From: Simmondsia chinensis
Lineage: Eukaryota > Streptophyta > Magnoliopsida > Caryophyllales > Simmondsiaceae
DNA length: 64,000 bases
Assembly: GCA_018398585.1 (NCBI GenBank)
Contig: JAGTTD010000018.1
Coordinates: 7,199,501 to 7,263,500 of the forward strand
Reading direction: 5' to 3'
Position numbers and translations under genes: made by a program. Each line of letters starts with the position of its first letter. Position 1 is the stretch's first letter. The notes under the pieces were generated by a model that saw only the letters and a list, made by a program, of their open reading frames with translations, made no database searches and had not been told where the DNA came from. Below, piece by piece: positions 4,680-63,499 of this stretch.

Positions 4680-5820
4680 TTAAAATACCCTTGAGTTATG
4701 TTTGGAGCACGGAATTGGGGCTAGAATTCAAATTCTTTTGTTCAGTTCATCTGCTGGAATTGGAATTACAATTTTACTACCCAATTTTATGGAATCGGAT
4801 TTTAACTGAAAATCACACTTTCTAATTCTTTGGTGTTGGGTTAAGGAATTTCAATTCCATATTAACTCCAACAACAACAACAATAACAATAGACTCAGTG
4901 CTTCAAGGACTCCCGCATAAGCGAGGTCTGGGAGAGGTGGATGTACACAGCCTTACCCCTTTAGGGTGTAACCTTGCCGAGAGACTGTTTTCGAGGACCC
5001 CCAACCATATAGGGTTGGCAACACAAGGACTTCCCATATTAACTCCATTGACTTAAAACCCAAAATGAATCAAAATTCAAAGACTTAGTCAAAACTAAAC
5101 TTTGACCCGAACCTCAAAATCACCCAACTCGTATGACTTAGCTTTAAATGATCGAAATCACGTTCAATCAAAGTCCGAATTGACCTAATCTAATTGACCT
5201 GAAACTTGAGATGACTAAAATCCTTCAAAATGAAACTACTTGAATTGAATGTGAGATAAACAAGTTGAGTCAAAGTGGAAATGATTCGACCAAATTGACC
5301 AAAAACGTAATACGACCCAAATCTAAAATGACCCGGCCCATATCAAACTTTGTCTAAGATGACTCCAAATTTGAAATAATAAAGCTCGTTTGTTCCAAAA
5401 CTAAGTTGACTTGAGATTAAAATTACCTAAATCAACTCAAACCTAATCGATTCTAGTTTGAATCTCAAAAGACCTAACCCGATTAACTGAAAATCCGACA
5501 TAACTTGAAGAACAACTGATTCAACGTGATATGCGACCCAATTTGACCTGAAACTCGAATAACTCAAATTCAAAGTGAATCACTCTAACCATTATAACTT
5601 GAATGCAATGTAAACCGCTCCTATTATAATCTGATAGTAGTTGATCTGAAACTTAAAATACTCGAACTTGATTGAACATAAACCCTTGATGATTCAAATT
5701 ATTATGTAATCATAATTCCGACCTCTAATTCCTTTGATGAATCAAACAACTGAATTTCAATTCTATTAGAATTCTGTAATCCAATTCCAATTCCAGTTCC
5801 AAATAGAGCCTTGGGGAATT
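4680..5820. repeat. Non-coding hAT-like repeat with degenerate internal repeats; host of a SINE
   Basis: The ends are inverted: left GTTTGGAGCACGGAATTGG (near 4699), right the complement of a similar stretch (CCAATTCCAGTTCCAAATAG, near 5790). Inside, from about 5050 to 5700, the sequence is built from loosely repeated pieces resembling 'GACCCGAAC', 'TGAAACTTGA' and 'ACTCAAAT'. No coding frame is seen. A SINE (4871-5033) is inserted near the left end. Confidence 0.5.
4871..5033 (-). mobile_element. SINE with 5S rRNA-derived head, 5' truncated
   Basis: On the minus strand the element starts GAAGTCCTTGTGTTGCC, matching the 3' end of plant 5S rRNA (box C region). It continues through GGTAAGGCTGTGTACATCC and GCTTATGCGGGAGTCCTTG and ends in a TTG-repeat tail. 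It is flanked by a perfect 14-bp direct repeat CCATATTAACTCCA (4857-4870 and 5034-5047), the target-site duplication expected from LINE-mediated insertion. The body aligns along its whole length with the copy at 63067-63342, including the junction between 5S part and tail. The 5S part is cut to about 17 nt, consistent with 5' truncation at insertion. Confidence 0.85.
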
Positions 5821-40823: not shown

Positions 40824-43800
40824 TGCACGTGGAGATTGTCGTGAATGGTCGAAGGACTAGAGCCATGATTGACACCGGCGCCACGCACAACTTTGTCTCG
40901 GGACAAGAGGCGAAAAGACTGGGGTTAAAGCTTAGCCAGGAGGGAGGAAGCTTAAAAGCCGTTAACTCTAATGCTAAGCCGATTCTTGGGCTAGCAAGAG
41001 AGGTAACCGTAAAGCTTGGAGAATGGGAAGGTCGGGTGAACCTCACAGCTGCCCCAGTGGACGACTTCAGCCTTGTTCTTGGTATGGAGTTCCTCCAACA
41101 GGCCAAGGGAATCCCCATGCCGCACATTAATTCACTTCTCCTGATGGGTAAGAATCCGTGTCTAGTGAAGGGCTCCCCGATTACGAAGACAGGTGTCAGA
41201 GGGGGCGCAGGTCCCCAGTTGTCTGCCATGCAGTTCGAGAAAGGGCTAAAGTGACATGAACCTACCTTCCTCGTAGCCTTGTCCGCAAAAGAAGATGAGG
41301 AACCTACTATTGTGCATCCCCGAGTTCAGGGGCTACTAGAAGAGTATGGAGATGTCATGCCAGAGGAGCTACCGAAAGTGCTCCCTCCTCGACGTACTGT
41401 AGATCACCAAATTGAGTTGTTACCCGGGGCTAGGGCCCCCGCCAAAGCACCTTACCGCATGGCGCCCCCGGAGCTGGCTGAGCTTAGGAAACAACTTGGG
41501 GAGTTGATCGATTCAGGCTTCATCCGCCCTTCTAAGGCTCCCTACGGAGCCCCAGTCCTATTCCAGAAGAAACAAGATGGCAGCTTGAGATTGTGCATCG
41601 ACTATCGAGCTCTCAACAAGGTTACCGTGCGGAACCACTACCCCATCCCACTAGTGGCCGATTTGTTTGAACAACTGGGGGGAGCCAAGTTCTTCACTAA
41701 GCTCGACCTTCGCTCAGGTTATCATCAGGTCCGCATTGCTGAAGGAGACGAGCCTAAGACGACATGTGTGACCCGTTATGGGGTGTTTGAATGGCTCGTT
41801 ATGCCTTTCGGGCTCACGAATGCTCCAGCCACCTTCTGCACCTTGATGAATCATGTCTTCCATGAGTACCTTGACAAATTTGTCGTGGTGTACTTGGATG
41901 ACATTATGACCTATAGCACCACCATGGAGGAGCGCCTTTGGCATTTGAGGTTGGTCTTCCAGAAGTTGAAAGAACATCACATGTTTGTGAAGCGAGAGAA
42001 GTGTTCTTTCGCCCAAGAAGAAGTCAGCTTCTTAGGGCACATTATTGGACAAGGACGGATCAAGATGGATCCGAAAAAGATACAAGCTATTGAAGATTGG
42101 TCGGGGCCGAGGAATGTCAGTGAGCTTCGTTCCTTTCACGGCCTTGCCAACTACTACAAAAGATTTATTGAGGGCTATTCAAAGAAGACAACCCCGTTGA
42201 CTGATTCGTTGAAAAAGGACCACAAATGGGATTGGTCAGACTCATGCCAGCAAGCTTTTGAAGAACTAAAGACAACAGTCATGAGAGAACCCATCTTGGC
42301 CCTTCCCGATATTACTAATCCCTTTGAAGTCCAAACGGACGCTTCCAATTTTGCACTCGGAGGAGTCTTACTGCAAGAAAAGCATCCCATAGCTTACGAA
42401 AGCCGAAAACTCAAGGATGCCGAACGTCGTTATGCTGCACAGGAAAAGGAGCTCCTGGCCATGGTTCACTGTTTGCGAGTTTGGAGACACTACCTTTTGG
42501 GATCAAGGTTCGTGGTGAAAATGGACAATTCAGCTACTAGCCACATCCTGACCCAGCCGAAGCTATCATCCAGGCAAGCCAGATTGCAGGACTTTCTTAC
42601 CGAATTTGACATGGAGTTACAGTATCAAGCCGGAAAGAGCAATCAGGTGGCCGATGCCTTGAGCCGACGGTCCGACTTAGTTGCTCTGAGCCTGTGTGCT
42701 TCCCTCTCCTATAGTGGTGTGACTACCTTACTTCAAGAGAAAATCAAGCAGCATATGAATGAAGATCCATCCGGCAGAGTCATTCGTGGACTGATCCTAG
42801 AGGGAAAAACCCGACGGTTCTGGGAGGAAGACGGACTTCTATTGACAAAGGGGAGAAGGCTGTTTGTTCCGGCAGCTGGGGGACTTAGGAGGTCCTTGAT
42901 GAAGGAATCCCATGACACCCTTTGGGCAGGACACCCTGGTTGGCAACGAACTCTGAGTTTGCTGATGCAGGGTTACTTCTGGCCCGGAATGAAGGAAGAT
43001 GTGATGAGCTACACAAAGACCTGCCTCGTCTGTCAGCAGGATAAGATCGAGAGACAGAAGAAGGCAGGGTTGTTAGAGCCCCTCCCTGTTCCGTCACGAC
43101 CTTGGGAGAGTGTCTCTTTGGACTTCATCACCAGCTAACCAAAAGTGGGGGAGCTCTCCGCAATATTGGTGGTTGTTGACCGGTTCTCCAAATATGCCAC
43201 ATTCATCCCTACCTCTAGTTCCTGTCCTGCCGAGGAGACAGCGTCCTTGTTCTTTCAGCACATTATGAAGTATTGGGGAGTTCCACGCAATATCGTGAGC
43301 GACAGGGATCCTCGGTTTACCGGCACCTTTTGGTCAGAACTTTTCAGGCTGTTGGGGTCTGAGCTGAACATCTCCTCAAGCTATCACCCTGAGACCGATG
43401 GTCAGACAGAGAGGATCAATGGGCTGTTGGAGGAATATCTACGACATTTTGTGAGTGCCAACTAGTCCGACTGGGTTGAGCTCCTCCATGTTGCGCAATT
43501 CTGTTTTAACTCCCAGAAGAGCTCATCCTCGAACAAGAGCCCCTTTGAAATTGTCAATGGCCGACAGCCTCTTCTACCGCATACTGTGACAGAACCGTAC
43601 AGGGGTGAAAATCCGAGGGCGTACAACTACACCAGGGAATGGAGGGACAACAATGAGGTTGCAAAGGCCTACTTAGAGAAGGCCTCCAAGAGAATGAAAA
43701 AGTGGGCAGATCGGGGAAGACGACCGATGGAGTTTCAACCTGGGGACATGGTGCTAGTCAAGATCAACTATGACCAGCAAAGATTTCTCAGGAAAAGGGA

Positions 43801-44503
43801 CAAGCGACTAGTGCGCAAGTACGAAGGCCCAGTTCGTTTGGTTGCCCGTGTGGGACGAGCCTCCTATCGGGTCCAACCCCCGAACTGGATGAAAGTCCAC
43901 CCTGTATTTCATGTGAGTTGCCTCAAGCCCTTCCAGGCGGATGAAGAAGATCCCTCACGTAAGGTATCCGCAAGGACGGACATCCGCATGCACCCAACAC
44001 CTACACCCGAAGTGGAAGAAGTTATTGCCGAGCGAAAAATTGAAGACCACAAGGGAGTCAAGAAGACAGAGTACCTGATACGGTGGAAGGGAAAACCTGT
44101 TGAAGAAACAAGCTGGATCGCTGAAGAAGACCTCCCTAACAGGGAGAGACTGAAGACCAAGAAGAAGGAAAAGAAGAAGTTGACGAGGGCGTCGACAACT
44201 CAAGTGGGGGGAGGATGTCATGGTCCTAGGCTTGCCCAGTGTCCGCGACCCCGTGACAAGCCGCAAGGTGCATTGAGGCCCTTGCGCCCGGCCCCTGGTC
44301 AGTGCCCCGGGTCCCTGGTTCTAGACCAGACCCGCACGCTCGCCCCTGCGCGCGCCCCGGGTCGGGCCACAGGTCGCGCCCCAGGGCGCTGCCCAGGGCC
44401 TGCCGCAGGGCCCGACACTGTCAACTTTTCTCTTTTTTGTTCGACTCGATGGGGCTTCTTGCACGTCGTCCCCATGGGTCCTAGGATAGCCATATGTATA
44501 TAG
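40823..44503 (+). pseudogene. gypsy pol: protease, RT, RNase H, integrase, chromodomain
   Basis: A single reading frame with stops TGA at about 41252, TAA at 43136 and TAG at 43463. Order: protease MIDTGATHNFVS (40865); RT with [20 protein letters not shown] (about 41560), [12 protein letters not shown] and the catalytic VVYLDDIM (41884); RNase H with [11 protein letters not shown] (42334), the [10 protein letters not shown] block and MDNS; integrase zinc finger ([11 protein letters not shown] ... CLVCQQDK), core with VVVDRFSKYATF, VSDRDPRFTG and SSYHPETDGQTERING (DDE); C-terminal VHPVFHVSCLKP; chromodomain EYLIRWKGKPVEETSWIAEEDL (about 44071-44135). The frame continues into the 3' LTR without a stop before 44503. 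The chromodomain family guides integration to heterochromatin. Inactive as it stands. Confidence 0.9.
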
Positions 44504-57487: not shown

Positions 57488-58708
57488 TCATGGGCGACTA
57501 ATTATAACAGGTTTCAACCCTATCCCTTCATTAGTTCCCAGACCCAAATCTCTAGCCAGGCCTTTAGTAAATGGATCCGCTAGATTCTGACTGGTTCTCA
57601 CGAAGTCCACAGTGATAACACCTTCCCGAATAAGGTGTCTCACCATACTATGTCTAACACCAATGCGTCTGGACTTCCCATTATACACTTCACTGTACGC
57701 TTTAGAAAGCGTAGCTTGACTATCATAATGGATAGAAATAGGAGAGATCGGCTTCGGCCACAAAGGTATCTTATACAAGAGATCCTTTAACCACTCGGCT
57801 TCTTTAGTCGCAGAAGCGAGAGCGATAAACTCCGCCGCCATTGTAGAGTCAGATATGCAAGTTTGTTTCTTGGAACCCCAAGAAACTGCACCCCCACCAA
57901 ACAGGAATACCCATCCACTCGTGGATGCATGATCCTCTACATCGGAGATCCAACTTGCATCAGTATACCCTTCCAAAATAGGAGGATACCCAACATAATT
58001 GAGACCATAATCCATAGTCTTCTTTAGGTACTTCAGTACCCGGTGCACTGCATCCCAGTGCAACTTACTCGGTTTGCTGGTATATCTACTCAGCTTTCCA
58101 ACAGCAAAGGCAATATCATGCCTAGTGCTTGTCATGGCATACATGAGATAGCCAATAGCTCGAGCATACTCCAATTGTGCCACTGGAGCACCCCCATTCG
58201 GTACTAATTTCACACTAGCATTCATTGGTATGGATATCGGTGCACAGTCAAAGAAATGGAACCTTTTCAACACCTTTTCGATATAGTGAGACTGCGTCAA
58301 GGAAATTGCATCACCATTCCTTACAATCCTTATACCAAGGATTACTTCCGCCTCACCCATATCTTTCATAGCAAAGTTTTCAGAGAGAAACAATTTAGTT
58401 CTCTTGACTTGTTCCATATCAGTACCGAAAATCAGCATGTCATCGACATACAAACATATAATGACCCCTTTGCCATTATCAAACTTGCTATAGAAACATT
58501 TATCAGATTTGTTTATAACGAATTCATTGTTCAATACAACTTGATCAAATTTCTGGTGCCACTGCTTCGGGGCTTGCTTCAGCCCATATAGAGAACGTAT
58601 GAGTTTACACACTTTTCTCTCTTGGCCCGGAACAACAAACCCTTCTGGTTGTTCCATGTATACTTCCTCCTTTAGCTCACCATTCAGGAATGCCGTTTTG
58701 ACATCCAT
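57488..58708 (-). CDS. copia pol C-terminal part: reverse transcriptase and RNase H
   Basis: 406-codon open frame. It begins at the block MDVKTAFLNGELKEEVYMEQ and continues with LYGLKQAPKQWHQKF, the catalytic ICLYVDDMLIFGT (about 58430), then VKLVPNGGAPVAQLEYARAI and RNase H with DASWISDVEDHASTSGWVF, TMAAEFIALASATKEAEWL and the C-terminal ADPFTKGL. The YVDD box and RNase H acidic residues are present. The frame lacks its own start because it is the continuation of the upstream frame after a one-base change near 58715-58735. It would copy element RNA and remove the template. Motif spacing and length match complete copia enzymes. Confidence 0.9.
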   Translation of the reverse strand: MDVKTAFLNGELKEEVYMEQPEGFVVPGQERKVCKLIRSLYGLKQAPKQWHQKFDQVVLNNEFVINKSDKCFYSKFDNGKGVIICLYVDDMLIFGTDMEQVKRTKLFLSENFAMKDMGEAEVILGIRIVRNGDAISLTQSHYIEKVLKRFHFFDCAPISIPMNASVKLVPNGGAPVAQLEYARAIGYLMYAMTSTRHDIAFAVGKLSRYTSKPSKLHWDAVHRVLKYLKKTMDYGLNYVGYPPILEGYTDASWISDVEDHASTSGWVFLFGGGAVSWGSKKQTCISDSTMAAEFIALASATKEAEWLKDLLYKIPLWPKPISPISIHYDSQATLSKAYSEVYNGKSRRIGVRHSMVRHLIREGVITVDFVRTSQNLADPFTKGLARDLGLGTNEGIGLKPVIISRP

Positions 58709-61409
58709 TTGGTGTATTCATTAGTTTAAAAATGGAGGTAAGAGCTATCAATACCCTTATCGTCGATATTCTTGCCACGGGGGCATATGTGTCAAAGTAG
58801 TCCAACCCATACTTTTGGGTGAACCCTTTAGCCACCAATCGGGCCTTGAACTTGTCAATTGTTCCATCGACTTTCATCTTCTTTTTGAAGATCCATTTGC
58901 ACCCGATGGGCTTACTTCCTCGTGGAAGATCCAAAAGGATCCAGGTATTATTACCTAAGATGGAATCCATCTCATCATTTACAGCCTCTTTCCAAAATGA
59001 GGCATCATGAGACCTCATTGCCTCATTAAACGTCATGGGATCAGCTTCCATGACACAACAATATGGAGCCACTTGCTCCACATCGTTCCTCGAACCTTCT
59101 ACCAAAAATGTGTAGAAGTCCGAACCGAGAGATTTCTCTTTCCTCGCTCTCTTACTCCTACAGAGTTCTAGAGCACTTTCAGGGATATCTTCCCTCTCAT
59201 GATGAACATCGTCATACGACACTTGAGTGTCACTCTCAACCGGTACATAATCCCTCGGTCTAGGGATAGAAGTAAACCGATTCTCATCAAATATCGCGTC
59301 TCTCGATTCTGTTATTGTGTTCACACCGATATAATCATTAGGTTCGACTACATAGAACCGATATGCCTTGCTATGAGACGCATAACCCACAAAGATGCAA
59401 TCAATGCCTCTTTCACCTAATTTTTTCCGTTTAGGTTCGGGGACTTTAACGACTGCCCTATACCCCCACACTTTCAAATAGTTCAAATTAGGGGCTCGTT
59501 GGTTCCACAATTCATATGGGGTTATTTTATTTCTTTTGTTCGGAACTCTATTTAATAAATGACAGGCCATTAACATAGCCTCACCCCAAAACCCATCGCT
59601 GAGACCGGAATAAGATAACATGGAATTAACCATCTCAGTTAGAGTTCGGTTTTTCCTCTCAGCCATGCCATTTTGTTGTGGCATATATGATGCAGTTATT
59701 TCATGTATTATTCCTGTGGATTCAAAATATTTAGGATCACAGTACTCTCCACCACGATCCGACCTTAAGCGTTTGAGGAAGGTTTCACAGTGTAACTCAG
59801 TTTCTGCTTTATATGCTTTAAATCTATCAAGCGAGTCATCTTTGTTACTTATCAAATATACATAACATAATCTTGAACAATCGTCAATAAATGTAACAAA
59901 GTAATTCTTTCCACCTAAACTCGGTGTGCGCTTGAAATCACATAAGTCACTATGTACTAGGTCAAGTAGATTAGTCTCTCTTTGCACTGACGGAAATGGT
60001 AATTTCGTTATCTTAGTTAGCATGCACGTTTTGCATTTGTCATCAACTTTATCCATGTGAGGAATAAACAAAGTATTAACCATTTCATGTAATCTACGAA
60101 AATTCACATGACCTAGTCTACGATGCCATAAAAACGATGAATCAAGCATATAAATAGAATCTGCAATTTTATTATTGATATTCATGTTAAACATTCCATT
60201 ACATAGGTACCCTTTGCCAACAAATACTCCACCCTTTGACAAAATGAACTTGTCGGCCTCGAAGACCAACTTGAACCCAAACCTATTTAACAGGCCACTG
60301 GACACGAGGTTCTTCTTAACGTCAGGAGCGAAGCATACATCGGTTAAAGTAAGGGTTTTTCCAGATGTGAAAAGTAAATCAACTTTTCCCTTCCCTTTAA
60401 CTGGTACCGACGCCCCATTTTCCATGAACAACTCAGTTCTGTTGTCCATGGGCTCAAAAGTTGTGAAGAACCCCCTGTCCTTACATACATGTCTCGTGGC
60501 CCCCGAGTCAATCCACCAAGAGTTATCACTCTCGACTAGATTGACTTCCAATATCATCACCACGAACCTCTCGTTCGAATTTTTAGTGCGATGATCAAGC
60601 CCCTTGCCTTTGTTCTTTTTAAGGCGGTAATAGTCTTTACGAATATGACCGGGCTTCTGACACTCCCAACAGACCACTTTCGGCCTCTTGTCATGCTTCT
60701 TCTTTTGGAAGTGTTCGGTTCTCTTGGTTCCCTTACTCGATTGGCCTTCTTCAGTGACGTTGATTTTGCCAACATCACTAGGGCGGTCTTTGTTGTCATC
60801 CTGTACCCTGTAACCTTCCTCAACACGCAAATGGTTAGCCAGTTCCTCAATTGACATATCCTCCTTCTTGTGTTTTAGACTTTTCTTTACAACTTTCCAA
60901 GAGGGAGGAAGTTTGTCAATTAAGGAAGAAACAACAATTGTATTGTCCATGTTCATGTTGTGTTGTTTAAAATTATTTAATATTCGTTCAATCTCATGGA
61001 ATTGTTCCATGACAGGACGATCATCAACCATCTTATAATTGTTAAATTGACTAACCAGGAATTTTTTGCTTGTAGCATCCTCAGCCATGTATCGCGCCTC
61101 AAGTGCGTCCCAATGTTCCTTCGCGGTCGCCAGGTTAGAGTAAATGTCAAACAGGGCATCAATCACACCATTCAAAATATGCCATCTGCAGATAGAGTCG
61201 TCATTCTCCCACTTCAATCTGGCTCTCTGCTCGGCCAGGGTTTCTTCCTCCTCGGAGACGGGGAATGGGCATGGTGTATTCAGGACATACACCACGTTCA
61301 GCGTTGTGATGAGAAAATGCATCTTCCTCTGCCACTGGCGGAAATTTTCGCCATCAAATCTATCCAACTTCACAAAGTTGGCTGTCATTTCCCTTAGTGA
61401 TGAAACCAT
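58677..61409 (-). CDS. copia gag-protease-integrase and start of RT
   Basis: The start chosen is ATG at 61409 (MVSSLREMTANFVKLDRF), 29 bases after the 5' LTR; the open frame begins earlier only because it reads into the LTR. Domains: UBN2-type gag (about residues 10-200); zinc knuckle CWECQKPGHIRKDYY, whose fourth ligand, normally Cys, is Tyr; protease WWIDSGATRHVC; pre-integrase LWHRRLGHVNF with CKTC; integrase with LVHSDLCDF, FIDDCSRLC, LRSDRGGEY and QQNGMAERKNRTL (DDE triad present); RT start CKWIFKKKMKVDGTIDKFKA. After VLIALTSIF the frame shifts and ends in an unrelated tail. Apart from that shift and the altered knuckle, it looks intact. Confidence 0.9.
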   Translation of the reverse strand: MVSSLREMTANFVKLDRFDGENFRQWQRKMHFLITTLNVVYVLNTPCPFPVSEEEETLAEQRARLKWENDDSICRWHILNGVIDALFDIYSNLATAKEHWDALEARYMAEDATSKKFLVSQFNNYKMVDDRPVMEQFHEIERILNNFKQHNMNMDNTIVVSSLIDKLPPSWKVVKKSLKHKKEDMSIEELANHLRVEEGYRVQDDNKDRPSDVGKINVTEEGQSSKGTKRTEHFQKKKHDKRPKVVCWECQKPGHIRKDYYRLKKNKGKGLDHRTKNSNERFVVMILEVNLVESDNSWWIDSGATRHVCKDRGFFTTFEPMDNRTELFMENGASVPVKGKGKVDLLFTSGKTLTLTDVCFAPDVKKNLVSSGLLNRFGFKLVFEADKFILSKGGVFVGKGYLCNGMFNMNINNKIADSIYMLDSSFLWHRRLGHVNFRRLHEMVNTLFIPHMDKVDDKCKTCMLTKITKLPFPSVQRETNLLDLVHSDLCDFKRTPSLGGKNYFVTFIDDCSRLCYVYLISNKDDSLDRFKAYKAETELHCETFLKRLRSDRGGEYCDPKYFESTGIIHEITASYMPQQNGMAERKNRTLTEMVNSMLSYSGLSDGFWGEAMLMACHLLNRVPNKRNKITPYELWNQRAPNLNYLKVWGYRAVVKVPEPKRKKLGERGIDCIFVGYASHSKAYRFYVVEPNDYIGVNTITESRDAIFDENRFTSIPRPRDYVPVESDTQVSYDDVHHEREDIPESALELCRSKRARKEKSLGSDFYTFLVEGSRNDVEQVAPYCCVMEADPMTFNEAMRSHDASFWKEAVNDEMDSILGNNTWILLDLPRGSKPIGCKWIFKKKMKVDGTIDKFKARLVAKGFTQKYGLDYFDTYAPVARISTIRVLIALTSIFKLMNTPNGCQNGIPEW

Positions 61410-61438
61410 ATCCCAAATCAGAAAGTAAACCTTAAGAT

Positions 61439-62216
61439 TGTTAGAACAAAAAGTCAAAATACTTGCAAAATACTTGCAACCAGGTAACCAAGAGATCTCA
61501 GGTGTTGAGGCCGTGTAATCACTTTCCTTAAGGTTTATTTCGCTATACGAAATATCCTCGGGGATACAACAACAACCAAAATGAAATGAGAATGTGTAAA
61601 GGGAGAGAAAGATCGAGATGTGGAGAGATTGGAGTATTGTTCAAAGTAAACAACAACAAGAACACAACAACAAGAACACAAGAACACTTTGAATGCAAAG
61701 TTCTTTCACACTTGATTTCCCTTGTGTTTTTAATTCATTATTATGCCATCAAAAGAGGGGAGTAATATATATGTATTGCATGTACAAAGACGTCCCAAAA
61801 CAAAGGGCCATTAATGTATAAAAGAACCGGGAAGAAACCGCGCAGACAAACTGTCAAAACCGACCTATGTGTCGAAGCTGTGTGTCAACACACAGGTCGA
61901 CACATGGACTTACTGTAAGTCTGTGTGTCGACACACATTTTCTATGTGTCGACACACAGATCCCCTCCGTGCGCTTCTGTAAAGAGCTGTGTGTCGACAC
62001 ACGGGCCATGTGTGTTGGCACACAGCTGTCTCCCCACCGTTCTGGAAGATTGTGTGTCGACACACATGGCCCATGTGTCGACACACACACCCAACAAGCT
62101 CTTAAACATTCAAACGAGTATCGGGATATTATCTAATACGTCATATACATACATAAACAACATTTAACATATATATACACGTATTATACAACATATATTT
62201 TGAAAATACACCAACA
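61439..62216 (-). repeat. 5' LTR of young copia element
   Basis: 778 bp. On the minus strand the palindrome array (61866-62092) lies in the U3 part, about 125-350 bases in, upstream of an ATATATATTACTCC TATA-like stretch (about 61765). Confidence 0.92.
61866..62092. promoter_or_regulatory. Palindrome array in U3 (TGTGTCGACACA type)
   Basis: At least six sites built on TGTGTCGACACA, many extended to TGTGTGTCGACACACA, in about 225 bp, plus variants with one changed base (TGTGTCAACACA, TGTGTTGGCACA). The 3' LTR has the same array with fewer sites. Position upstream of the presumed TATA box suggests a promoter element. Function is inferred. Confidence 0.6.
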
Positions 62217-62796: not shown

Positions 62797-63049
62797 TAAT
62801 GACATCTTTTTTCATTGACAAAGCTAATGCGGCAATTGGTTTTTTATTAATGCTAGTGAAATGATAAAAATATCCTTCAATAACCATATATTTAAGCAAA
62901 AAAATTAGTTTATACATAATATAACATCTCGAATTTCGTATTTATTAAGTAAGAATAAGGGCAATGCCGGGTACGTTTTTTATTTTACTATAGCATTAAC
63001 AAAAAAGAAGTTGCCTCGTCAGCTTTGTTGACAGAAAATAACGTTATCA
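62797..63049. repeat. Hairpin-like MITE
   Basis: The left arm (about 62797-62872, containing TTGACAAAGCTAATGCGGCA and TTAATGCTAGTGAAAT) and the inverted right arm (about 62975-63049, containing GTCAACAAAGCTGACGAGGC and TTAATGCTATAGTAAA) match over about 75 bp. No coding capacity. The 5S-headed SINE is inserted at its right edge. Confidence 0.6.
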
Positions 63050-63066
63050 CTCCTATTTACACCCCA

Positions 63067-63184
63067 CCTGATAGGGTACCAACACGCAAGCACGGGATCC
63101 CATTAGAACTCCAAAGTTAAGCATGCTTGGGCGAGAGTAGTACCAAGATGGATGACCTCTTGGGAAGTCCTTGTGTTGCACCCC
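63067..63184 (+). rRNA. 5S rRNA-derived SINE head (not a functional 5S gene)
   Basis: About 118 bases matching plant 5S rRNA from end to end. It includes GGATCCCATTAGAACTCC, the A box TAAGCATGCTTGGGCGAGAG, the intermediate element GGATGGATGACC and the C box GGGAAGTCCTTGTGTTGCA. The internal control region is well kept; the 5' stem differs more. There is no T-run terminator after it, and it continues directly into the SINE tail, so it should be treated as a transposon part. Confidence 0.85.
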
Positions 63185-63258
63185 ACAGGTTTAGGGTTCT
63201 CGGAAACAACCTCTCTTCAGGGTAGCACCCTGAAGGGGGATGGCTGCGTACATTCATT

Positions 63259-63285
63259 CCCCCCCCCCCCCCCCCCCCCCCCCCC
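63259..63285. repeat. C27 homopolymer within the SINE
   Basis: A run of 27 C in the SINE tail where the other copy has a short pyrimidine stretch. Similar C runs of 26 and 30 bases occur at 7038-7063 and 11251-11280. Confidence 0.9.
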
Positions 63286-63499
63286 TCTTCCCCGACCCTG
63301 CTTAAGCAGGAGCCCTTTGGGCACTGGGAATATTGCTTGCTTACTCCTATTTACTCCCCAAACTCAAGGGAGTTAGGGCCAACACTGTTTTTGGGATAAA
63401 AGGCCACGTATTTTCCATGTGAGGCCATCCTTGAGGCATGTTTTCCCTTTAGATACAAAGATAACAGTGTCTTGAGCTCAATTACCTAATGAGTTAAAT

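Follow-up and report, generated by a model that had tools for sequence, protein, structure and literature searches.

Why does a short repeat in a plant genome begin with a unit derived from 5S ribosomal RNA (rRNA), and is it a lone chimera or one member of a family of transposable elements? The repeat in question occupies positions 63067-63342 of a 64-kb stretch of Simmondsia chinensis DNA (contig JAGTTD010000018.1; hereafter the window, meaning the whole stretch at its full length). An earlier reading of the letters of the window (the original prediction) took it for a plant short interspersed element (SINE) with a 5S rRNA head. Here we confirm that a 5S-headed SINE is present at this place, and report that it is a member of a multicopy, short, dispersed SINE family without long terminal repeats (LTRs), which supports that interpretation. 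With a probability of roughly 93%, we consider the family to be a non-autonomous plant retroposon that depends on a long interspersed element (LINE) and joins a 5S head with an internal RNA polymerase III (Pol III) promoter to the body and 3' end of a plant SINE.

Boundaries of the element and its copies in the host genome

The element was delimited as 63067-63342 because target-site duplications (TSDs) at 63049-63066 and 63343-63360 bound it; the predicted 18-bp target duplication is thus real, with two flanking 18-mers that agree at 17 of 18 positions. When the whole element was compared with the window by BLAST (E up to 1), the 18-mer was matched at just its two flanking sites, and together with the low cross-pair controls described below this rules out that it is a local repeat. 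No stop-to-stop reading frame of at least 130 amino acids overlaps the element. The window copy is 276 bp long versus about 245 bp for the family (consensus of 40 copies), and has an expanded C tract. Long C tracts were also seen in copies L002, L003 and L005; the window copy has 27 C's (63259-63285) and the consensus about eight.

The host assembly (831 Mb in 35 contigs) was searched with the element, and 40 places, one of them the window copy, were scored among 5,170 first-look candidates. All 40 (L001-L040), chosen by their similarity to the window copy, were taken with flanks, and every one of them spans the junction between the 5S unit and the body. A 35-base junction pattern (12 bases of the 5S end and 23 of the body, up to three mismatches) occurs at 2,339 places in the genome (1,172 forward and 1,167 reverse), versus none for its reversed but uncomplemented form. 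A 36-base pattern of the 5' end, with the same tolerance, occurs at 2,115 places (1,048 and 1,067 on the two strands), and its control again gave none; the two counts overlap, and copies with more mismatches fall outside both. Among the matches listed, copies lie on at least 26 of the 35 contigs. Far from being unique to this place, the 5S-tail junction therefore recurs throughout the host genome, and the anticipated abundance of copies was found there, with complete 5S heads, a shared tail and TSDs that vary from copy to copy. The exact junction 24-mer gave no match in the collections viral_contigs and genome_contigs, and a distant search of plasmids gave none either, as expected for a plant element.

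The 5S head, the body and the 3' end

The covariance model of 5S rRNA (Rfam RF00001) matches the window copy at 63074-63184 with 68 bits, where the gathering score is 38, and nowhere else in the window is that score reached. Of the 40 copies, 20, all with TSDs, were sampled, and all 20 reached the gathering score with 55-83 bits, while the scored 5S genes of the host gave 98-113 bits. These genes come from a search in which 47 of 51,838 candidates were scored; most of those scored belong to two arrays of contig C8. The two 5S ribosomal DNA arrays (L041-L070), at about 4.686 Mb and 6.405 Mb, have opposite orientation and different gene types, with repeat lengths of about 435 and 421 bp and some longer spacings.

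The 40-copy consensus aligns with the host 5S genes without gaps over positions 1-119, and its positions 12-119 are identical to the two host gene types at 101 and 102 of 108 positions. From this gap-free alignment and identity it follows that the element starts at the 5S transcription start and stays in step with the gene across the internal control region, and that the last base of its 5S part is the 3'-terminal one of 5S. The head is 5S rRNA-derived, internal control region included; within that region we place, by assumption, box A at 50-64, the intermediate element (IE) at 67-72 and box C at 80-97. Changes specific to the SINE were found in the head at positions 17, 21, 22 and 79. The original prediction had a near-complete 5S rRNA starting at the first base: the register does hold from position 1, but nucleotides 1-11 of the consensus are not recognisably 5S.

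In the window copy, Rfam marks the helix I pairs as broken, and the first 11 nt pair poorly with the 5S 3' strand. In a predicted fold of the first 130 nt of the consensus, positions 7-11 pair with 117-121 and positions 2-6 with 125-129, with probabilities of 0.66-0.84; in the fold predicted for the full consensus the same 5' end again pairs across the junction, in another register. The pairs of the 130-nt register are kept in 28-40 of the 40 copies. Covariation gave no support for the new closing helix, the changes in the 40 copies being nearly all single-sided. The predicted folds suggest that the first 11 nt may pair across the 5S-body junction instead of closing 5S helix I.

Downstream of the 5S unit, the 40-copy consensus continues with TCAGGTTGGGGGTTCTCGGAAACAGCC, a long hairpin, GGCTGCGTAC, the C tract and GACCCTGCTTAGGCGGGAGCCC...GCACTGGGAATGTTGCTT, and the tails are short TTGCTT or TTG repeats. 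We take the body and 3' end to resemble an Au-type SINE with an Angio-domain at its 3' end. The pieces that we presume to be Au- or Angio-like are GGAAACAGCCTCT..., GGCTGCGTAC..., GACCCxGCTTA.GCGGGAGCC...GCACTGGG and the TTG- or T-rich end. Runs of four T's before the tail are absent from 26 of the 27 copies with a convincing TSD; in the 27th (L025), the T runs sit at an apparently misplaced 5' boundary.

Divergence among the 40 copies amounts to 5.1% in the head, 7.6% in the body, 10.2% in the first 11 nt and 11.6% in the 3' domain, a pattern that the selection of the copies by similarity to one of them may have shaped. Promoter boxes standing out as islands of conservation were not seen, their divergence being about that of the rest of the head. 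Differences from the consensus are C>T or G>A in 501 of 759 cases, and CpG sites are 15% diverged versus 7% elsewhere, a twofold excess; both features are as would be expected of methylated copies.

Target sites, truncated relatives and a proposed mechanism

TSDs were scored by comparing 40 nt upstream of each copy with 240 nt downstream (match +1, mismatch -3), a score of at least 12 being taken as convincing, and in the control the upstream side of one copy was paired with the downstream side of another. A convincing TSD was found in 27 of the 40 copies versus 8 of 400 cross-pairs. All 27 are different, with a median length of 17 bp (13-28 bp) and 71% A+T; the longest (28 bp, in L032) carries four mismatches. 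Because the first 40 copies had been chosen for similarity to the window copy, a second sample was taken, consisting of 20 further places hand-picked from the list of exact junctions and spread over the contigs; one of them (L074) was dropped, its 5' side being cut. In this sample, the score reached 12 in 8 of 19 copies versus none of 200 cross-pairs, and two more copies score 10 and 11.

Some members begin inside the 5S unit and still have TSDs, namely L075, which starts at about position 43, and L085, which starts at about 49-55. The TTG-tailed sister copy noticed from the sequence is present on the reverse strand of the window, 5'-truncated within the 5S unit and flanked by a perfect 13-bp TSD (Table 1). 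Its 5S-body join is a variant one (TGTTGC-CAACCCTATATGG-TTGGGG), which, together with the TTG tail, points to a further subfamily of TTG-tailed, 5S-headed elements. Relatives of the body that are 5'-truncated and mostly TTG-tailed were found in the flanks of several fetched loci. In L033 (369-520), a TTG-tailed, 5'-truncated SINE is immediately followed by a 5S-headed copy, the two sharing one body type. In L010, the copy is immediately followed (756-885) by another SINE, which is 5'-truncated, shares its body and ends in a GCTTT tail, and behind this second SINE there is a near-identical duplication, as if one site had been used twice.

The combination of 5'-truncation with a TSD is a hallmark of a LINE enzyme working by target-primed reverse transcription. 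Since L075, L085 and the copy at 4870-5033 are 5'-truncated and keep TSDs, we infer that the family spreads in this way. In the mechanism that we propose, the 5S unit of the head would provide an internal Pol III promoter, from which TFIIIA/TFIIIC and Pol III would begin transcription, just as they do on a 5S gene, with the element's first base. Reading on through a body that lacks T runs, the polymerase would stop once it met T runs, either within the tail or beyond it; the preserved 5S register and the absence of T runs are compatible with such transcription. The plant SINE body and 3' end would be the part recognised by the reverse transcriptase of a partner LINE, which would mobilise the element by copying its RNA through target-primed reverse transcription, giving TSDs mostly of 13-21 bp and some 5'-truncated copies. 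As to the founder, a reverse transcriptase engaged on the RNA of an existing SINE probably changed templates, resuming at the 3' end of a 5S rRNA and running on to the 5' end of that molecule. Such a switch would account for a junction that coincides exactly with the 5S 3' terminus, and a template-switch chimera is the likely way in which the founder arose.

Several observations weigh against this account. By the automatic rule, 13 of the 40 copies have no convincing TSD, nor have 11 of the 19 in the second sample, where L078 is uninformative, its 3' side being cut; and both samples, drawn by similarity to the window copy and by exact junction, favour well-kept copies. Only 3 of the first 11 consensus positions are identical to host 5S, which is the chance level. 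The divergence of boxes A, IE and C (4.3, 5.8 and 4.7%) is not clearly below that of the other head parts (5.2 and 5.7%). Full-length tRNA-headed relatives with the same body were not present among the fetched loci, a statement with no genome-wide search behind it, and no partner LINE turned up, no LINE search having been made.

Table 1. Parts of the 5S-headed SINE and of its sister copy in the window
Feature	Position	Strand	Details
Left TSD	63049..63066	+	18 bp, ACTCCTATTTACACCCCA; 17/18 identical to 63343-63360
Complete 5S-headed SINE	63067..63342	+	276 bp; bounded by TSDs; family consensus built from 40 copies
5S rRNA-derived head	63067..63184	+	Consensus positions 2-119; first ~10 nt diverged; RF00001 and ungapped alignment to host 5S genes
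Stretch matching the 5S internal control region	63115..63162	+	Ungapped register with the 5S gene
SINE body with long hairpin (CTTCAGGGTAGCACCCTGAAG)	63185..63258	+	40-copy consensus; predicted fold
C tract, length variable from copy to copy	63259..63285	+	
Conserved 3' domain	63294..63335	+	40-copy consensus; also in TTG-tailed, 5'-truncated relatives
Short T-rich tail (CTTGCTT)	63336..63342	+	
Right TSD	63343..63360	+	ACTCCTATTTACTCCCCA
Sister copy TSD, 3' side	4857..4869	-	GGAGTTAATATGG
Sister copy, 5'-truncated within 5S (GAAGTCCTTGTGTTGC...), (TTG)n tail	4870..5033	-	
Sister copy TSD, 5' side	5034..5046	-	GGAGTTAATATGG; 13 bp, perfect

Elsewhere in the window, long open reading frames with protein motifs that appear, as read by eye, to be of Copia-type retrotransposons (57488-61640, reverse strand) and of Gypsy-type retrotransposons (41255-44503, forward strand) were seen. 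Five reading frames of the window that were compared with Pfam matched no family.

Known 5S-bearing elements, alternative origins and significance

Like the SINE3 elements, the family has a 5S-derived head with an internal Pol III promoter region, a short non-coding body, TSDs and many copies; unlike the known SINE3 families it has a plant host, and its body and tail appear to resemble the plant Au/Angio type. It differs from the Au- and Angio-SINEs in carrying a 5S unit in place of the tRNA unit, so that the tRNA-derived head with A and B boxes is not found. The Angio-SINE superfamily is, we assume, marked by a conserved 37-bp Angio-domain at the 3' end, which the 3' end of the present family appears to resemble. 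A tentative proposal, to which we give somewhat less than an even chance, is that this is the first SINE3-type family of land plants, in which the tRNA head of an Au/Angio SINE was replaced through a template switch onto the 3' end of 5S rRNA and the first 11 nt were then remodelled, so that the 5' end closes on the body and no longer on 5S helix I. Fish, mammals and Lepidoptera are known to carry elements of the 5S-headed SINE3 class, and in Aspergillus a 5S class has been recorded (PMC3747384, PMC10886601, PMC5063351; here and below, the papers cited are drawn on in excerpt). Common descent with animal SINE3 is not implied, because 5S-headed SINEs were born repeatedly, having arisen several times independently (PMC10886601).

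The novelty of the family, as distinct from its reality, is where the strongest alternative lies, namely that it has already been catalogued as a plant SINE3 in Repbase, SINEBase, a species library of transposable elements or a subscription paper. We regard this as unlikely, though it deserves more weight than the other alternatives. It is favoured by the AnnoSINE pipeline, whose head classes include 5S rRNA (PMC8825457). On the other side, the excerpted part of a review from 2022 gives tRNA as the source of plant SINEs (PMC9033089), and in the SINE/LINE pair table of a 2013 paper the land-plant rows read tRNA, with no 5S given for plants; in table 2 of the same paper the entry for the LINE partner of Au SINEs is Nd (PMC3747384). 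A 5S-headed plant SINE was not found in the literature searched, a scope that lies outside Repbase, SINEBase and subscription papers. The SINE-Finder step of AnnoSINE seeks the tRNA boxes A and B (PMC8825457), and for this reason a 5S-headed plant SINE could escape it.

Two further alternatives involve Cassandra, a terminal-repeat retrotransposon in miniature (TRIM) that is, like the family described here, a plant retroelement with a 5S promoter. Instead of deriving directly from a 5S gene, the head might go back to the LTR of a Cassandra element, or the descent might have run the other way, from a SINE of this kind to Cassandra. An origin of Cassandra by insertion of a SINE3 into an LTR has already been proposed (PMC10886601). 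We nevertheless hold this descent to be improbable, given that the head is in register with 5S over the full 119 positions, stops exactly where 5S has its 3' terminus and shows 94% identity with host 5S over positions 12-119, whereas the Cassandra cores, as far as the excerpt describes them, are mostly shorter (PMC10853983).

Far less credible is the alternative that the element is itself a solo LTR or a fragment of Cassandra. Integration of LTR elements creates TSDs of about 5 bp, a length that we presume for Cassandra as well, versus the median of 17 bp in the 27 copies here. Cassandra is widespread in vascular plants, with a 5S-related core of about 70 nt that sometimes exceeds 100 nt, but its 5S region is described in the excerpt as lying in the middle of the LTR and never at its terminus (PMC10853983). 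The present family, unlike Cassandra, has no LTRs, and its 5S-like unit is terminal, starting right at the TSD or no more than a few bases from it, with the same 5' end at 2,115 places. TSDs of 13-28 bp are not short, and the element ends are not TG...CA. Moreover, there is one 5S match at gathering score in each of the 3.2-3.3 kb loci L002-L008 (7/7), as in the window. We therefore reject a Cassandra solo LTR, and the separation from Cassandra that the original prediction had drawn on similar grounds is upheld. Ajax, a nemertean TRIM with 5S in its LTR, likewise shares the 5S-derived promoter module and differs from the SINE family in being an LTR element with 5-bp TSDs (PMC10886601).

Finally, a one-off chimeric retropseudogene made by template switching, a known by-product of LINE reverse transcription, or an older SINE that came to lie next to a 5S pseudogene by chance, is rejected for 63067-63342 as next to inconceivable, the same junction (2,339 places) and 5' end (2,115 places) being recurrent and the TSDs differing among the copies examined.

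A 5S-headed plant SINE is the sort of element from which the 5S region in the LTRs of Cassandra has been supposed to descend, and none was found for plants in the literature searched. A plant SINE3 makes testable the proposal, repeated in the Helenus/Ajax paper, that Cassandra arose by insertion of a SINE3 into an LTR (PMC10886601). If the family is new, the diversity of Pol III genes from which SINEs take their heads, familiar from animals, would extend to plants, and there on a plant-type body.
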